Shown in pieces: positions 1-10,121 of a stretch of DNA of 63,388 nt. Positions within the stretch are counted from its first letter, which is position 1. Each line of letters begins with the position of its first letter. The stretch is from Olavius algarvensis Gamma 3 endosymbiont (GTDB lineage Bacteria; Pseudomonadota; Gammaproteobacteria; GCA-001735895). The stretch covers positions 404,719 through 468,106 of the forward strand of contig DS021200.1 in the NCBI GenBank assembly GCA_001735895.1, given 5' to 3'. A model generated the notes under the pieces. That model did no database searches and was not told the origin of the DNA. It saw nothing but the letters and a program-made list of their open reading frames with translations. A program made the translations under genes and the position numbers.

Positions 1-446
1 TTAAAAACAAATGGCCTGGCGGCGGCCGGAAAAACAACTACGTCAAACCGTTGCGGCGAATAGTGGTGCATCGAGAGGATCATGTGGACCCGCTGGTACT
101 GGTAACCAACCTGATGGGGGTCCCGGTTGAAGAAGTTGCAGCGCTGTACAAGCAGCGTTGGGCGATCGAACTCTGGTTCAAGTGGGTCAAGCAGAACCTG
201 AAAATCAAAAAGTTTCTCGGTCAAAGCGAGAATGCGGTCAAAATCCAGATACTGGTGGCATTGATCACGTATCTCATCGCCGATCTATACCGGCAACTTT
301 GTGGATCGAGACGCGGTTTTTATCTGTGGCTGGCGGAACTCAAATCGACTCTATTCCAGCGACCCAGACTCGAATTCGAAGTACTTAAACGACGACGAAA
401 ATGGAAATCCGATTTCCAAATACATCAAGCACAGTTGGCATTATGA
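1..446 (+). CDS. IS4-type transposase, C-terminal part (runs off the window start)
   Basis: The frame is open from base 3, so the gene begins upstream of the window and only about 147 residues are visible. The segment KQRWAIELWFKWVKQNLKIK carries the Y/K-R-W-x-I-E-x-W-F-K-x-x-K-Q-x-L pattern around the last catalytic Glu of IS4-family DDE transposases. It stops at 444-446 (TGA). I see no clear terminal inverted repeat before the alaS stop at 492, so the right end of the element is not defined. Whether the copy is complete cannot be judged here. Confidence 0.8.
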   Translation, partial: KNKWPGGGRKNNYVKPLRRIVVHREDHVDPLVLVTNLMGVPVEEVAALYKQRWAIELWFKWVKQNLKIKKFLGQSENAVKIQILVALITYLIADLYRQLCGSRRGFYLWLAELKSTLFQRPRLEFEVLKRRRKWKSDFQIHQAQLAL

Positions 447-5189: not shown

Positions 5190-5972
5190 GTGCACAATAA
5201 CAATCGCCCTGACCTATCCGAACGTCATATCCTGCTACTGCTGGCGGTAGTGATCGCCGCAGCGGCGCCGATCCTGCTGCAACCGGGATGGCCTGCGCCC
5301 GGTTCCGTCAGCGGGCAATTGTGCGCCGCCGCAGGCAGCCTGTTATTGCTCGCGCCGCTGCTGTTCCTGGTCACGAAACGCTCGGGCTTGAGCGCCAGCC
5401 CGCCGGCCTGGTTTATTGCGCACGTGCTGGCGTCGATGCTCGGTTGCACGCTGATCTTCGTCCATGTCGCCGGCGGCGACTGGCTAACCCCACCCGGGTT
5501 GATTTTGCTGGCATTGCTGTTGTTAATTCTGCAAGGCACCCTGTTACGCGTCATCTTCGCGCGAGGCTTCAGCCGGCTGTTTGCGCGCAACTGCTTGCCG
5601 ACCGGATTTAGCGCCCCGCCGCAGCTCGATAAGCCGGCGCTACGGCAATTGATCGAAGCCAAAACGGGTTTGCTGCAACAACTCGATCCCGGCGCCGACG
5701 AAGCGCTTTTTTCACCGGCGCTGAAACACTGGTTGCGCCACCCGCAGTTAAGCCTGCGCTACCAATGGTTGGCCGAGCGCGAGGCACGCCTGGTCGGCGC
5801 GCGTGCCGGCGCCGGCGTCGAACTCGGCTGGTCGCGACGTTTCCACATGCTGCTCGCGCTTGGATTTTACCTGGGCCTGCTGGCGCATGTTATCGTGATG
5901 CTGTTCTTCGCCGGGTATGCCGCCGGCGGCGAAGCCATCGATTGGTGGTATATCACCGCCTGGGGCGGTTGA
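5190..5972 (+). CDS. Membrane anchor subunit of a molybdoenzyme, likely diheme b-type
   Basis: First gene of a three-gene operon, GTG start. The 260-residue protein has about six hydrophobic segments interrupted by a soluble loop around residues 125-205. Two segments each carry a pair of His with identical spacing: H78/H92 and H219/H233. Such pairs across two helices are a known way to hold two b-type hemes. I infer a quinone-reactive anchor passing electrons to or from the FeS-molybdopterin protein whose ATG lies 3 bases downstream. It fits the DmsC/NarI role by context, but I do not recognise the exact family. The operon is visibly richer in G+C than recA. Confidence 0.6.
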   Translation: MHNNNRPDLSERHILLLLAVVIAAAAPILLQPGWPAPGSVSGQLCAAAGSLLLLAPLLFLVTKRSGLSASPPAWFIAHVLASMLGCTLIFVHVAGGDWLTPPGLILLALLLLILQGTLLRVIFARGFSRLFARNCLPTGFSAPPQLDKPALRQLIEAKTGLLQQLDPGADEALFSPALKHWLRHPQLSLRYQWLAEREARLVGARAGAGVELGWSRRFHMLLALGFYLGLLAHVIVMLFFAGYAAGGEAIDWWYITAWGG

Positions 5973-5975
5973 AAC

Positions 5976-8927
5976 ATGACCGACGCGACAACCCAGCTGG
6001 CATTGATGATCGATCTCGAGCGCTGCACCGGTTGCAAAAGCTGCGAAGCCGCCTGCAAGCAAACCAATGCGCTCGGGCCCAATAGCTATCGCAACCGCGT
6101 CATGTGGTTTGACGAACAGCAGCCGGAAGCCGGGGAACCGTCACCGGCGCGCCTCGATTTTCTGACCGTCACCTGTCAGCAATGCGAGCGCCCTGCCTGC
6201 CTGCGTGCCTGCCCGGTCTATCCCAAGGCAATTTCCAAGGACCCGGTTACCGGGGTGGTTTCGATCGATGAAAACCGTTGCACCGGCTGCGGCGAATGCG
6301 CCCTGTCCTGCCCCTACGGCGCCATCGGCTATAACGCCGAACAACACCATGCGGTGAAGTGCGATCTCTGCGCCGAGCGCCGAGCTAAGGATCTCGGCCC
6401 GGCTTGCGCCTTTGTCTGCCCGACGCGCGCAATCAGCTACGGTGCACGCGCCACGCTGCTCGACCAGGCGCAACGGGAGCGACGCGAAATACTCGATACC
6501 GATCACTTCCTGCAGCAACCGGCGACGATTTATCTGCGCCGCCCGCGCGACGTCGCTGCCGGCACCGCGGCGTCGCCGGTGCGCAGCACGCCGGCGTTGC
6601 TGTCCGATCACTTCAGTCGAATTTCGTTGAAATCGGATATCGCCCGCGGCTCCTATCGCCAAACCGAGAAATCCGAGCTACTGGAGCAAGCGGAACGTAT
6701 CGTGCCGGGCGGCTGCAATATCTGCTTCAACGGCTGTCCGATCAAATATCACCTGCGCGGCGACAAGGTCGTCAATATCTACGGCAACGACGAGGATCCG
6801 GTATTCCAGGGTCGGATTTGCCCGAAATCACAAATGACGCTGCAGATGTACAACAATCCGCACCGGCTGACTACCCCGCTGAAACGTATCGGCAAACGCG
6901 GCAGCGATAAATTCAAGTCGATCAGCTGGGACCAGGCACTGAGCGAGATCGCGCTCAAACTGGAAGCGGTGCGCAGCCAGTACGGCAGCGAGGCGCTCGC
7001 GATTCAGTCGGGTTCGCGCACCGGCGTACTCAATATCATCGGCGCGATTCCGATGTTCGCCGCGTTGTGGGGCACCGCCAACGTCGCCGCCACCGAGCCT
7101 TATTGCGATCTGGGCAAGGGTCTCGCCCTCGGTCTGACGCAGGGCACCGGCCTGATGGCGAACGTTTATACCCAAGACGACATCGGCAGCGCCGAGGCCT
7201 ATGTCTACATCGGGGACAACCAGGCCGAAACCCGGCCGGTCAATTTCGGCCTGGTTAACGACTGGCGCCTGCAAAAAGGCGCGCAGATGATCGTCGTCGA
7301 CCCGCGCCTGACCGTTACCGCGAGCAAGGCCGACGCCTGGCTGCCGATCCGCTCGGGCACCGATATGGCGCTCGGCCTCGGTATCATCCATTACCTGTTT
7401 AGCAACGACTTGCACGACCAGGCCTTCTGCGAGCAATGGATCGTCGGCTGGCGCGAATGGCGCGACTTCATCATCGATCAGGATTACGACCTCGACTGGA
7501 CCGCGCGGGTAACCGATCTGGCGCCAGAGCAGATTAAAATGCTGGCGACCACGATCGCCGGCGCGGACGGCTGCATGATTTTTCTGAGCCGCGGCATCAA
7601 TCAGCACACCAACTCGGTGCAAACCAACCGCGTCTTCATGTTCGTCGCGGCGATGACCGGCAACTGGGGGCGCCCTGGCGGCGGATATTTCAATGTGTCG
7701 TCGGAGATGAACTGGAAAGCGCCGCGCGTACCGAAAGAGCGCCGGCCCTGGACCCGGGCCGCGATCGGTAAAAATCCGTCCGACTGGATGACGGCGATGC
7801 TCGACGAGGGGCCCTACCCGATCAAGGCGCTGATCACCAGCAATAATCCGCTGGCGCAGTGGCCGAATCAAAACCGCGCGCGCCGCGCGGTGCAGGCGCT
7901 CGACCTGGTAGTTCACACCGAGTTATTCAAAAACGCCACCTCGCGCTACGCCGACTATGTGCTGCCGATGGCCAGCGGCATCGAAAAAGGCGGCACCACC
8001 CGCTTTGCAGAAGACCGCCGCATCGTCTGGAACGACCGTCTGATCGACCCGCCCGGCGAGGCCAAATCGGATCACTGGTTCTGGATCGAGCTCGGCAAAA
8101 AGTTCGGTTTCGAAGATGTGCTCAAGGACGAATACAAGGATCCGCGCAAGTTATGGGACGAAGTGCTGGTGAGGGCAACCCCGGACCTGGCCGAGGCCAC
8201 TACCGAGCGTCTCTGCAGCCGGCCCAACCGCACTGTGCGGCTGCCCTGCTTCGAGCCGCAAAACGGCGAGCTCGACCCGGTGTATGTCACGGCGGTCATG
8301 CGCCGTAATCCCGCTGCCGGCCTGGGCTATCCGACCCTCAGCGGCAAGCTCGAATTCTGGACGCCCGAACAGGACAGAAAATTCGAAACCATGGGGTTGT
8401 CCGCGTTACCCGAATTCTATACCGAGGCGGAACAGCTGGTCAGCCTGCCGTATATCAAGTACGCCGACCAGCCGCTGGCTTCCAGTTTCTTCAGCCGCGA
8501 AACGCTGGTTTACCCGGGACAGATCGTCAACGAACACGTTACCCGCGATGCCGCCTTCGATACCGAGCTCGTCACCGGCCGCCCGCCCGCTCCCCACTTT
8601 CACTCCTGGACCCACTACTTCTGGCAGGCACAGGAAATGTGGCCCGAACTCTACTGTCAGATACACCCGCAAAAGGCCGCCGCATTCGACATCGAAGACG
8701 GGGACCAGGTCGCTATCGAAACCGTCAACGGTAGCATTGTCGCGCGCGCCTGGCTGCATCGCGGCATCCGACCCAGCAGCATCTTCATTCCGATCGGTTG
8801 GGATGAGCAACAACCCTACCACCCGAGTTCGAGCGTCAATCACCTGACCGGCATCCGCCTGGATCCGATTTCGCAGCAAGCCAACCTTAAGACCCACCTG
8901 TGCCGCATAAGCAAGGTCGGCCACTGA
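5976..8927 (+). CDS. Fused four-cluster ferredoxin and molybdopterin oxidoreductase (DMSO reductase superfamily)
   Basis: A 983-residue fusion. Residues 1-190 are a DmsB/PhsB/NrfC-type subunit with four Cys clusters: CTGCKSCEAAC, CQQCERPACLRAC, CTGCGECALSC, and CDLC with CAFVC. From about residue 230 a complete bis-MGD catalytic subunit follows. It has its own FeS ligands (C247, C250, C254, C282) and EPYCDLGKGLA, where C377 is the probable Mo ligand by comparison with PhsA/PsrA. The domain ends in a molybdopterin dinucleotide-binding fold. No Tat signal precedes the ferredoxin part, so the active site probably faces the cytoplasm, as in SoeABC. These two parts are normally separate subunits. 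The substrate is unknown; sulfur compounds are a guess from the Cys ligand. Confidence 0.85.
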   Translation: MTDATTQLALMIDLERCTGCKSCEAACKQTNALGPNSYRNRVMWFDEQQPEAGEPSPARLDFLTVTCQQCERPACLRACPVYPKAISKDPVTGVVSIDENRCTGCGECALSCPYGAIGYNAEQHHAVKCDLCAERRAKDLGPACAFVCPTRAISYGARATLLDQAQRERREILDTDHFLQQPATIYLRRPRDVAAGTAASPVRSTPALLSDHFSRISLKSDIARGSYRQTEKSELLEQAERIVPGGCNICFNGCPIKYHLRGDKVVNIYGNDEDPVFQGRICPKSQMTLQMYNNPHRLTTPLKRIGKRGSDKFKSISWDQALSEIALKLEAVRSQYGSEALAIQSGSRTGVLNIIGAIPMFAALWGTANVAATEPYCDLGKGLALGLTQGTGLMANVYTQDDIGSAEAYVYIGDNQAETRPVNFGLVNDWRLQKGAQMIVVDPRLTVTASKADAWLPIRSGTDMALGLGIIHYLFSNDLHDQAFCEQWIVGWREWRDFIIDQDYDLDWTARVTDLAPEQIKMLATTIAGADGCMIFLSRGINQHTNSVQTNRVFMFVAAMTGNWGRPGGGYFNVSSEMNWKAPRVPKERRPWTRAAIGKNPSDWMTAMLDEGPYPIKALITSNNPLAQWPNQNRARRAVQALDLVVHTELFKNATSRYADYVLPMASGIEKGGTTRFAEDRRIVWNDRLIDPPGEAKSDHWFWIELGKKFGFEDVLKDEYKDPRKLWDEVLVRATPDLAEATTERLCSRPNRTVRLPCFEPQNGELDPVYVTAVMRRNPAAGLGYPTLSGKLEFWTPEQDRKFETMGLSALPEFYTEAEQLVSLPYIKYADQPLASSFFSRETLVYPGQIVNEHVTRDAAFDTELVTGRPPAPHFHSWTHYFWQAQEMWPELYCQIHPQKAAAFDIEDGDQVAIETVNGSIVARAWLHRGIRPSSIFIPIGWDEQQPYHPSSSVNHLTGIRLDPISQQANLKTHLCRISKVGH

Positions 8928-8933
8928 GCAGCC

Positions 8934-10121
8934 ATGGGCCCGGCCGAGACCGACATCTCGTCACAATTCCTGCTGACCATCGGCATCATTCTGCTGGTCG
9001 GATTGATGTTCTCTGCCTTCGCCCAGCGCAGCTTCCTGCCGCGCGCCACGCTGTTGCTGATATTCGGCGCCATCATCGGCGATAGCCTGCTCGACCTGAT
9101 CCCCGAGCTGTTTACGCAACGCTTCGAGCTAATTGCGGACATCACCCTGCTGATGGTCGGTTTCCTGCTGGGCGGCAAGCTGACCACGAGTTCGCTTCGC
9201 GACCACAGCATCAAGTCGTTTGCGATATCCTTCAGCGCCGCGGTGATCCCGGCCGCCGTGGTTTGCCTGGGCATGGTCGTCATGGGAGTTGCCATCGAAA
9301 TCGCGCTGTTGCTCGGATGTTTTGCCGCCGCCACGGCGCCGGCCGCGATCTTCGACGTGGTCGAGGAATCGGGGGTTAAAAACCGTTTCAGCGAATTACT
9401 ACTCTTAATCGTCGTGCTCGACGATGTCTGGGCGCTGTTACTGTTCGGGGTCGGAATGGCCGTCGTGACATCGCTAAACGGCGCGGTGAACGACCTCGGC
9501 TTCACCACTTTGATAGCATATGAACTCGGCGGGGCGATACTGCTGGGCGTTGTGGTGGGGCTGCCCGCGGCCTACCTGAGCGGGCGCATCAAGCCCGGGA
9601 AACCGGTGCTGTCGGAAGCGCTCGGCATCGTTTTCCTGTGCGGCGGCCTGGCGCTCTGGCTGAACGTTTCCTACCTGATCGCCGCCATCGTAATGGGCGC
9701 CGTAATCGCCAATCTGGCGCGCCATCACGATTACCCGTTTCACGCGATCGAAGGCATCGAATCGCTTTTCATGGTGGTATTTTTTGTGCTTGCCGGCGCC
9801 TCGCTGGAATTCGGCGCGCTCGCGCTCATCGGCAGTGTCGGCGTGGTCTACATCCTGTGCCGCGCGGCCGGCAAATATTTCGGCGCCTGGCTCGGCGCCA
9901 CCCTGAGCCGGGCCGGGCCGGGTAATCGACACTGGATGGGCGCCGCGCTACTGCCGCAGGCCGGGGTCGCCATCGGCATGGCGCTGGTCGCCTCCAACCG
10001 GTTTCCCGAGTACCGCCAGATCATGCTGCCGATCGTGATCGCCTCCACCGTCGTGTTTGAAATAATCGGACCGGTTTTCACACGCTTCGCGCTTCGGCAT
10101 ACAACCGATAGCCGCGCTTGA
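8934..10121 (+). CDS. CPA2-type cation:proton antiporter
   Basis: A 395-residue integral membrane protein with about 12 hydrophobic segments and no cytoplasmic TrkA domain. ATAPAAIFDVVEES and the following VLDDVWALL resemble the conserved acidic pair region of KefB/NapA-type exchangers. It begins 6 bases after the molybdoenzyme stop, so it is probably co-transcribed. It may balance protons or sodium linked to that enzyme's electron transfer (inference). It converges on pncC with only 6 bases between them. Confidence 0.8.
   Translation: MGPAETDISSQFLLTIGIILLVGLMFSAFAQRSFLPRATLLLIFGAIIGDSLLDLIPELFTQRFELIADITLLMVGFLLGGKLTTSSLRDHSIKSFAISFSAAVIPAAVVCLGMVVMGVAIEIALLLGCFAAATAPAAIFDVVEESGVKNRFSELLLLIVVLDDVWALLLFGVGMAVVTSLNGAVNDLGFTTLIAYELGGAILLGVVVGLPAAYLSGRIKPGKPVLSEALGIVFLCGGLALWLNVSYLIAAIVMGAVIANLARHHDYPFHAIEGIESLFMVVFFVLAGASLEFGALALIGSVGVVYILCRAAGKYFGAWLGATLSRAGPGNRHWMGAALLPQAGVAIGMALVASNRFPEYRQIMLPIVIASTVVFEIIGPVFTRFALRHTTDSRA

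Follow-up and report, generated by a model that had tools for sequence, protein, structure and literature searches.

A two-gene module was found in a 63,388-nucleotide stretch of the genome of the Olavius algarvensis Gamma 3 endosymbiont (assembly GCA_001735895.1, contig DS021200.1, positions 404,719 to 468,106 of the forward strand; hereafter the window). It encodes a 983-residue protein in which a four-cluster ferredoxin is fused to a molybdopterin oxidoreductase, together with a membrane anchor predicted to bind two hemes. The fusion is real, widespread and, as far as the literature was covered, undescribed. The chances are about even that the module as a whole is a cytoplasm-facing molybdenum (Mo) enzyme of an undescribed MopB subfamily, oxidising sulfite into the quinone pool. 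Its two parts differ in strength: the complex and its electron path are highly probable, whereas sulfite as the substrate could equally prove right or wrong.

Architecture of the fused gene

The features of the module are listed below by position in the window (TM, transmembrane; aa, amino acids).

5190..5972, + strand: membrane anchor gene, 260 aa, GTG start; five predicted TM helices and a large basic loop at residues 123-215
5421..5465, + strand: codons H78 to H92 in TM3 of the anchor; invariant His
5844..5888, + strand: codons H219 to H233 in TM5 of the anchor; invariant His
5976..8927, + strand: fused ferredoxin-molybdopterin oxidoreductase gene, 983 aa, ATG start 3 nt past the anchor-gene stop
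6024..6419, + strand: ferredoxin domain, C17 to C148, with 16 Cys for four [4Fe-4S] clusters (Fer4_11 etc.); invariant in 65/65
6714..6821, + strand: FS0 [4Fe-4S] site of the catalytic domain, C247-C282 (Molybdop_Fe4S4); invariant in 65/65
7104..7106, + strand: Cys377, predicted Mo ligand, followed by Asp here and by D/A/S/G in relatives
7590..7631, + strand: R539-G...H544-x-N546..Q549..R552, predicted active-site stretch; R539 is common to SoeA and PhsA/PsrA-like rows
8598..8609, + strand: F875-H876-S877-W878 motif; HSW is common to SoeA

The initial annotation had placed a 983-residue fusion at 5976-8927, and these coordinates proved exact: the open reading frame listing gives one intact frame on the + strand, from the ATG and without internal stops. 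On this single chain, Pfam located Fer4_11 (residues 60-157), Molybdop_Fe4S4 (242-293), Molybdopterin (297-708) and Molydop_binding (865-973), all above cut-off, which together with the FS0 site and Cys377 assigns the protein to the dimethyl sulfoxide (DMSO) reductase or MopB superfamily. The molybdopterin oxidoreductase part is complete (residues 242-973). NCBIfam aligned residues 8-158 to DmsB (TIGR02951) and the remainder to catalytic subunits of the Fdh, PhsA and Nas types, in each case below cut-off. The 16 Cys of the ferredoxin, the four of FS0 and Cys377, assigned as Mo ligand by alignment with solved relatives, were invariant in all 65 aligned fused proteins, which bears out the claim of a four-cluster ferredoxin N-terminal to a Cys-ligated molybdo domain. 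The absence of a signal for twin-arginine translocation (Tat) was confirmed from the N-terminus, which reads MTDATTQLALMIDLERC, and the suggestion of a cytoplasm-facing enzyme with a hard-wired iron-sulfur relay is supported. The fusion is as unusual as first described, but it is not a lone two-domain protein. The membrane partner at 5190-5972 had been overlooked.

The membrane anchor and the predicted electron path

Wherever a locus extends 850 nt or more upstream of the fused gene, the anchor gene precedes it: this holds for 69 of 69 loci, 65 recognised by frame and four by translated search. Alignment A4 was composed of 51 anchors plus that of the window, drawn from 65 anchors with a usable frame. 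H78, H92, H219 and H233 did not vary in any of these 52 sequences. Five hydrophobic segments are predicted; the third carries H78/H92 and the fifth H219/H233, each pair 14 residues apart. Each of these two helices thereby has one His close to either face of the membrane, the arrangement usual for two bis-His b hemes. Here, H78 and H219 are predicted near the cytoplasmic side and H92 and H233 near the other, as ligands of two b hemes, and the basic loop is predicted to face the cytoplasm.

No family in Pfam or NCBIfam matched the anchor. Its structure model (predicted local distance difference test, pLDDT, 85) gave no significant match with Foldseek, and the best match to a heme protein, b561 (4o6y; Z 8.6, root-mean-square deviation (rmsd) 3.3 Å over 128 residues), lies within the background for helical bundles. 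A relation to the anchors of FdnGHI or NarGHI was not detectable by Pfam, PDB sequence or Foldseek. Because the fold comparison reaches only background level, the heme assignment follows from the His pattern, by which the anchor is predicted to be a diheme cytochrome b.

With catalytic, four-cluster and membrane-anchor modules encoded together (16 Cys in 65/65, anchor in 69/69), the module has the architecture of a complex iron-sulfur molybdoenzyme (CISM). Because a membrane anchor, predicted to be diheme, is conserved as the second gene of the module, a quinone-linked complex is predicted. The module would work like a CISM-type complex, for which FdnGHI, NarGHI and SoeABC are the models. The 983-residue protein would oxidise its substrate at the Mo in the cytoplasm, and electrons would pass from Mo to FS0, through the four ferredoxin clusters to heme b (H78/H219), then to heme b (H92/H233) and finally to quinone.

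Distribution of the fusion

The same fusion recurs across the genus and across phyla. It was present in 25 of the 31 genomes of the same genus and in none of 10 other genomes of the family; a class-level sample yielded it at E <= 1e-100 in 3/369 genomes, all three of this genus. Of these 25 copies, those of G003, G006 and G012 run off a contig end and those of G008 and G027 are split in two frames. In these two drafts and in that of L095 the break falls near residues 613-629, through either assembly error or decay.

From a scan of species genomes 79 distinct loci were kept, with 52-89% identity where the match spans most of the gene. Seventy have a usable full-length fused frame; outside these are the cut or broken L039, L043, L047, L089, L095, L101, L103, L105 and L106. 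Alignment A3 holds 64 of the 70 frames plus the window, the near-duplicates L030-L032, L034, L035 and L038 having been dropped. The gammaproteobacterial carriers are sediment Gammaproteobacteria, Thiotrichaceae, Halomonas, Vreelandella, Modicisalibacter and Spiribacter; further carriers are Roseobacter-group genomes and a plasmid, Burkholderiales, Rhodospirillales, Nitrospinota and Tectomicrobia. Full-length relatives thereby span Gamma-, Beta- and Alphaproteobacteria, Nitrospinota and Tectomicrobia, and isolates are among them (Halomonas, Spiribacter, Tritonibacter and a complete Pseudohalocynthiibacter plasmid). No relatives were found on viral contigs.

A sequencing or assembly error joining two genes, which the initial annotation had named as a way in which its reading could fail, can for practical purposes be dismissed. 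Only the rarity of the architecture speaks for such an artefact, and it is already refuted by the occurrence of the fusion in 25 of 31 genus members and in other phyla, isolates included.

Position of the catalytic half

A tree of 47 rows and 696 columns was made by a quick method and contains long branches; it includes 17 fused rows plus the window, and leaves out ArrA, TtrA and AioA. The fused proteins formed one group (Shimodaira-Hasegawa-like approximate likelihood ratio test, SH-aLRT, 100), with lone Tat-exported enzymes of Nostoc and Streptomyces as sister (SH-aLRT 99), on the Fdh/Nap/Nas side rather than in the SoeA half (SH-aLRT 89). Forcing the fused clade together with SoeA was 53.9 log units worse (approximately unbiased (AU) test, p 2.8e-4), and with the PhsA/PsrA-like rows 67.7 log units worse (p 8.9e-8). 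Membership in the SoeA clade is therefore rejected, on quick trees with long branches, as is membership in the PhsA/PsrA-like clade, against which the missing Tat signal also counts. The four PhsA/PsrA-like rows are labels of convenience, because no protein in 274 genomes exceeded the cut-off of the PhsA model; in the window's own genome none exceeded that of TIGR02166. The fused protein is a member of no tested clade and forms its own branch of the superfamily. A position inside a well-known enzyme, the other way in which the first reading could have failed, was not found among the tested clades. Of the original label 'PhsB/DmsB-type', the ferredoxin half stands, but the catalytic half does not group with DmsA, PhsA/PsrA-like proteins or SoeA.

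The position of Arg539 (S-R-G), to which R332 of Thermus 2vpw aligns, is taken by Met or Leu in the rows of Fdh and Nap/Nas, and by Arg in SoeA (5/5), in the PhsA/PsrA-like rows (4/4) and in the one Deinococcus row. Among the non-fused rows, only those of SoeA (5/5) have a whole His-Ser-Trp at 876-878, and the Dms/Ynf rows have Ser at the Mo-ligand column. A fused SoeAB inside the SoeABC family would account for the cytoplasmic location, the Cys ligand and the common R539 and HSW. It is nonetheless very improbable, being already disfavoured by the AU test (p 2.8e-4), with an anchor that matches no family and a canonical SoeABC coexisting in relatives.

The structure model of the fused protein (pLDDT 84, predicted template modelling score 0.90) is closest to NapA and Fdh, with 2nap at Z 38.8 and rmsd 2.4 Å over 660 residues, rows within 1 Z being tied. 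This resemblance, the tree position nearer the Fdh/Nap/Nas half and the arsenic island in which the Streptomyces sister protein sits would fit a cytoplasmic reductase that depends on quinol, or an oxidase whose substrate is not a sulfur compound but, for example, a nitrogen oxide, an arsenic species or a formate-like compound. We regard such an enzyme as unlikely. Cys377 is followed by D, A, S or G in 65/65, so the Cys-His hallmark of formate dehydrogenases is absent throughout, although R552 is present. Nap/Nas rows have Met at the position of R539, and R539 is missing from the Streptomyces and Nostoc sisters, which have Tat-type signals. The fused protein also stayed under the cut-offs of the NapA and NasC models (157.9 vs 904 and 236.2 vs 1100 bits).

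Sulfite as candidate substrate

The substrate, left open at first, could be narrowed to sulfite as the leading candidate. The choice of sulfite rests on tauABC-pta-xsc in L089, on xsc in Halomonas-group genomes that have no SoeA, on the R539 and HSW common to SoeA, and on the dsr genes and broken soeABC of the window's genome. L089 is a betaproteobacterial contig of 7,983 bases, on which the 3' part of the fused gene, with all signature residues, is followed by tauA, tauB and tauC, with pta and xsc convergent, all within 8 kb. Pta and xsc score above cut-off; the best NCBIfam matches of tauABC are taurine models, slightly below cut-off. This arrangement would mirror that of R. pomeroyi, where soeCBA adjoins pta and tauR (PMC4334477).

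In three Halomonas-group genomes, xsc lies 10.5, 16.2 and 14.6 kb from the fused gene, distances obtained by equating xsc and module contigs of equal size. It lies on either side in differing arrangements, with pta beside xsc in two. A TauE-type exporter gene was found near xsc in one of the three (L178), and YeiH-type exporters at L177, L052 and L053. Among 40 carriers outside the genus, Xsc exceeded its curated cut-off in 27, a count without a background rate, and SoeA was found in 21; eight have Xsc without SoeA, two SoeA only and 11 neither. The eight include all four Halomonas/Vreelandella/Modicisalibacter genomes. The frequency of SoeA among carriers compares with 50/398 in sampled Pseudomonadota (Fisher p 2e-8, carriers not being independent).

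The window's genome has dsrA, DsrK and DsrO over cut-off, and aprA. With dsr and aprA genes, the organism is likely a sulfur oxidiser that must handle sulfite. At its soe locus (L111:7200-11333, contig C1), soeA is in two frames meeting at codon 153/154, soeB matches up to residue 156 only, with an IS1182-type transposase alongside, and no soeC turned up in the genome. In a draft genome a frame change may be an error; the missing soeB end and soeC do not depend on it. Six g1 relatives that were inspected have soeA and soeC together, with soeB listed in five and one soeA cut at a contig edge. The soeABC of the window's genome thus looks broken and the fused module intact. Another mobile element, a fragment of an IS4-family transposase, lies at the edge of the window (51-446), with near-identical stretches in L108 and L109 of the same genome.

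Within the genus, any dsrA-model match occurred in 23/25 module-bearing vs 3/6 module-less genomes (Fisher p 0.038); one of the 23, G024, has a single weak 217-aa fragment, and weak matches to the dsrA model may be dsrB. In this genus reverse Dsr would supply the sulfite, whereas elsewhere C2 sulfonates would yield it through desulfonation of the Xsc type; its oxidation to sulfate, inferred more weakly than the electron path, would be the substrate step. The module would then do the job of SoeABC with another catalytic lineage and another membrane anchor. The module may be a second, hitherto unrecognised type of cytoplasmic sulfite:quinone oxidoreductase, separate in origin from SoeABC and with a new diheme b anchor family; this is quite possible, if a little short of an even chance.

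Several points weigh against a role in sulfite oxidation. Most loci, including the window's, have housekeeping neighbours; the window copy is flanked by alaS-, recX- and recA-like genes on one side (by eye) and by Na+/H+ exchanger and PPK2 genes on the other. In Modicisalibacter, xsc is ~317 kb from the module, and in G786, G798, G808 and G823 it is SoeA, not the module, whose gene is close to xsc. Among the Nitrospinota carriers searched, no SoeA and no Xsc scored above cut-off. Near the module, the TauR box CTGGACYTAA gave only single one-mismatch matches and no pair. In three loci the module adjoins a MocR regulator, whose best score is to PdxR and which is therefore not taken for TauR. DsrA occurs without the module in 8/10 g2/g3 genomes, which makes a dependence on reverse Dsr weak. 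Since the AU test rejects a clade with SoeA, the residues in common with it would reflect convergence, retention or chance. Related carriers are not independent.

The coexistence with SoeA in 21/40 carriers outside the genus, and with a DmsC-type (SoeC) gene in 14/25 module-bearing genus members, also weighs against sulfite. A strict replacement of SoeABC by the module is unsupported, many genomes holding both. Coexistence fits a different substrate better than redundancy, and the same complex and path might serve another sulfur compound (e.g. sulfinate, thiosulfate, per- or polysulfide), complementary to SoeABC. The occurrence of R539 in PhsA/PsrA-like rows and the transporters of the TRAP type beside the module would agree. 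These transporters, with homologous DctP, lie inside the module locus in five halophile loci (L048, L051, L052, L053 and L078) and count in favour of sulfite as well; comparison with solved DctP homologues was uninformative as to the ligand. Another sulfur substrate is rather unlikely all the same: the nearest pathway genes, in L089 and Halomonas, end in sulfite, and no thiosulfate or sulfinate enzyme was recognised beside the module among the neighbours scanned, which were not all.

Other neighbouring genes were recorded. The Na+/H+ exchanger gene (8934-10121, same strand, directly 3' of the fused gene) recurs in several genus members and was not seen in L020. In Spiribacter a choline-dehydrogenase-like GMC gene runs into the anchor gene. 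The start of a frame resembling selenium-binding protein or methanethiol oxidase (by eye) lies ~5.5 kb from the module in Thiotrichaceae (L046:14482-14928).

Sulfite handling by organisms without SoeABC, SorAB or Apr-Sat is a recurring gap. In a survey of Bohai Sea sediment, aprAB/sat are reported as abundant and direct sulfite dehydrogenase genes as few or none (PMC12345210). The widespread two-gene candidate would offer a testable marker for this cytoplasmic-sulfite gap. A 'molybdopterin oxidoreductase' linked to sulfite is reported from Variovorax paradoxus B4 (PMC5373536). If the proposal is true, a sulfite enzyme would occur across sulfur oxidisers of marine sediment, halophiles that degrade sulfonates, Burkholderiales and Nitrospinota; having evolved apart from SoeABC, with its own gene set, it would be missed by soeABC-based surveys. 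The parts list of respiratory molybdoenzymes also gains a functional-looking B-A fusion with an unclassified putative heme anchor, which can help in studying the assembly of these complexes when Tat export is absent.

Comparison with known systems

No description of the fused module was found in the literature, as covered mostly by openly accessible papers and in part. The portions available of two superfamily surveys mention FdsA, ActB and FwdB-FwdD fusions, and not a ferredoxin-first fusion (PMC10100899, PMC7331816). ActB of alternative complex III likewise joins a MopB domain to a PsrB-type ferredoxin on a single chain (PMC10100899). ActB has lost its Mo-bis(pyranopterin guanine dinucleotide) cofactor, whereas the fused protein keeps the Mo site and five cluster motifs and has its ferredoxin N-terminal. 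Another fused subunit arrangement may occur in a g3 relative (L128:5123-7003), where a 626-aa frame beside a NasA-like gene combines a DmsC domain (family search) with a ferredoxin-like N-terminus (by eye).

The nearest non-fused sequences found are the Mo enzymes of plasmids of Nostoc sp. C052 and Streptomyces sp. NBC_01708, ~31% identical and on the sister branch. They differ in having no ferredoxin domain in the chain, a Tat-type signal and no R539. The Streptomyces gene (L025:7938-10463) lies in an arsenic-resistance island of the plasmid, next to ACR3 and ArsO genes.

PhsABC/PsrABC and DmsABC also combine a Mo subunit, a four-cluster ferredoxin and a membrane anchor, but their A and B subunits are separate, A is exported by Tat and the anchor is another one. 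SoeABC is alike in the missing Tat signal, the cytoplasm-facing position, the Cys-ligated Mo, the ferredoxin-type relay, the equivalents of R539 and HSW and the association with reverse Dsr and Xsc clusters. It differs in having three genes, with A and B separate, and the fused clade is a separate branch. In place of the DmsC/NrfD-type membrane subunit of SoeABC, the module has a protein without a Pfam family and with two predicted bis-His sites.

In FdnGHI and NarGHI, electrons run from Mo over iron-sulfur clusters and two b hemes to quinone, as in the solved complexes. Their subunits are separate, and the Cys/Sec-His motif of formate dehydrogenases is absent from the fused protein, but the electron path proposed for the module would be the same.

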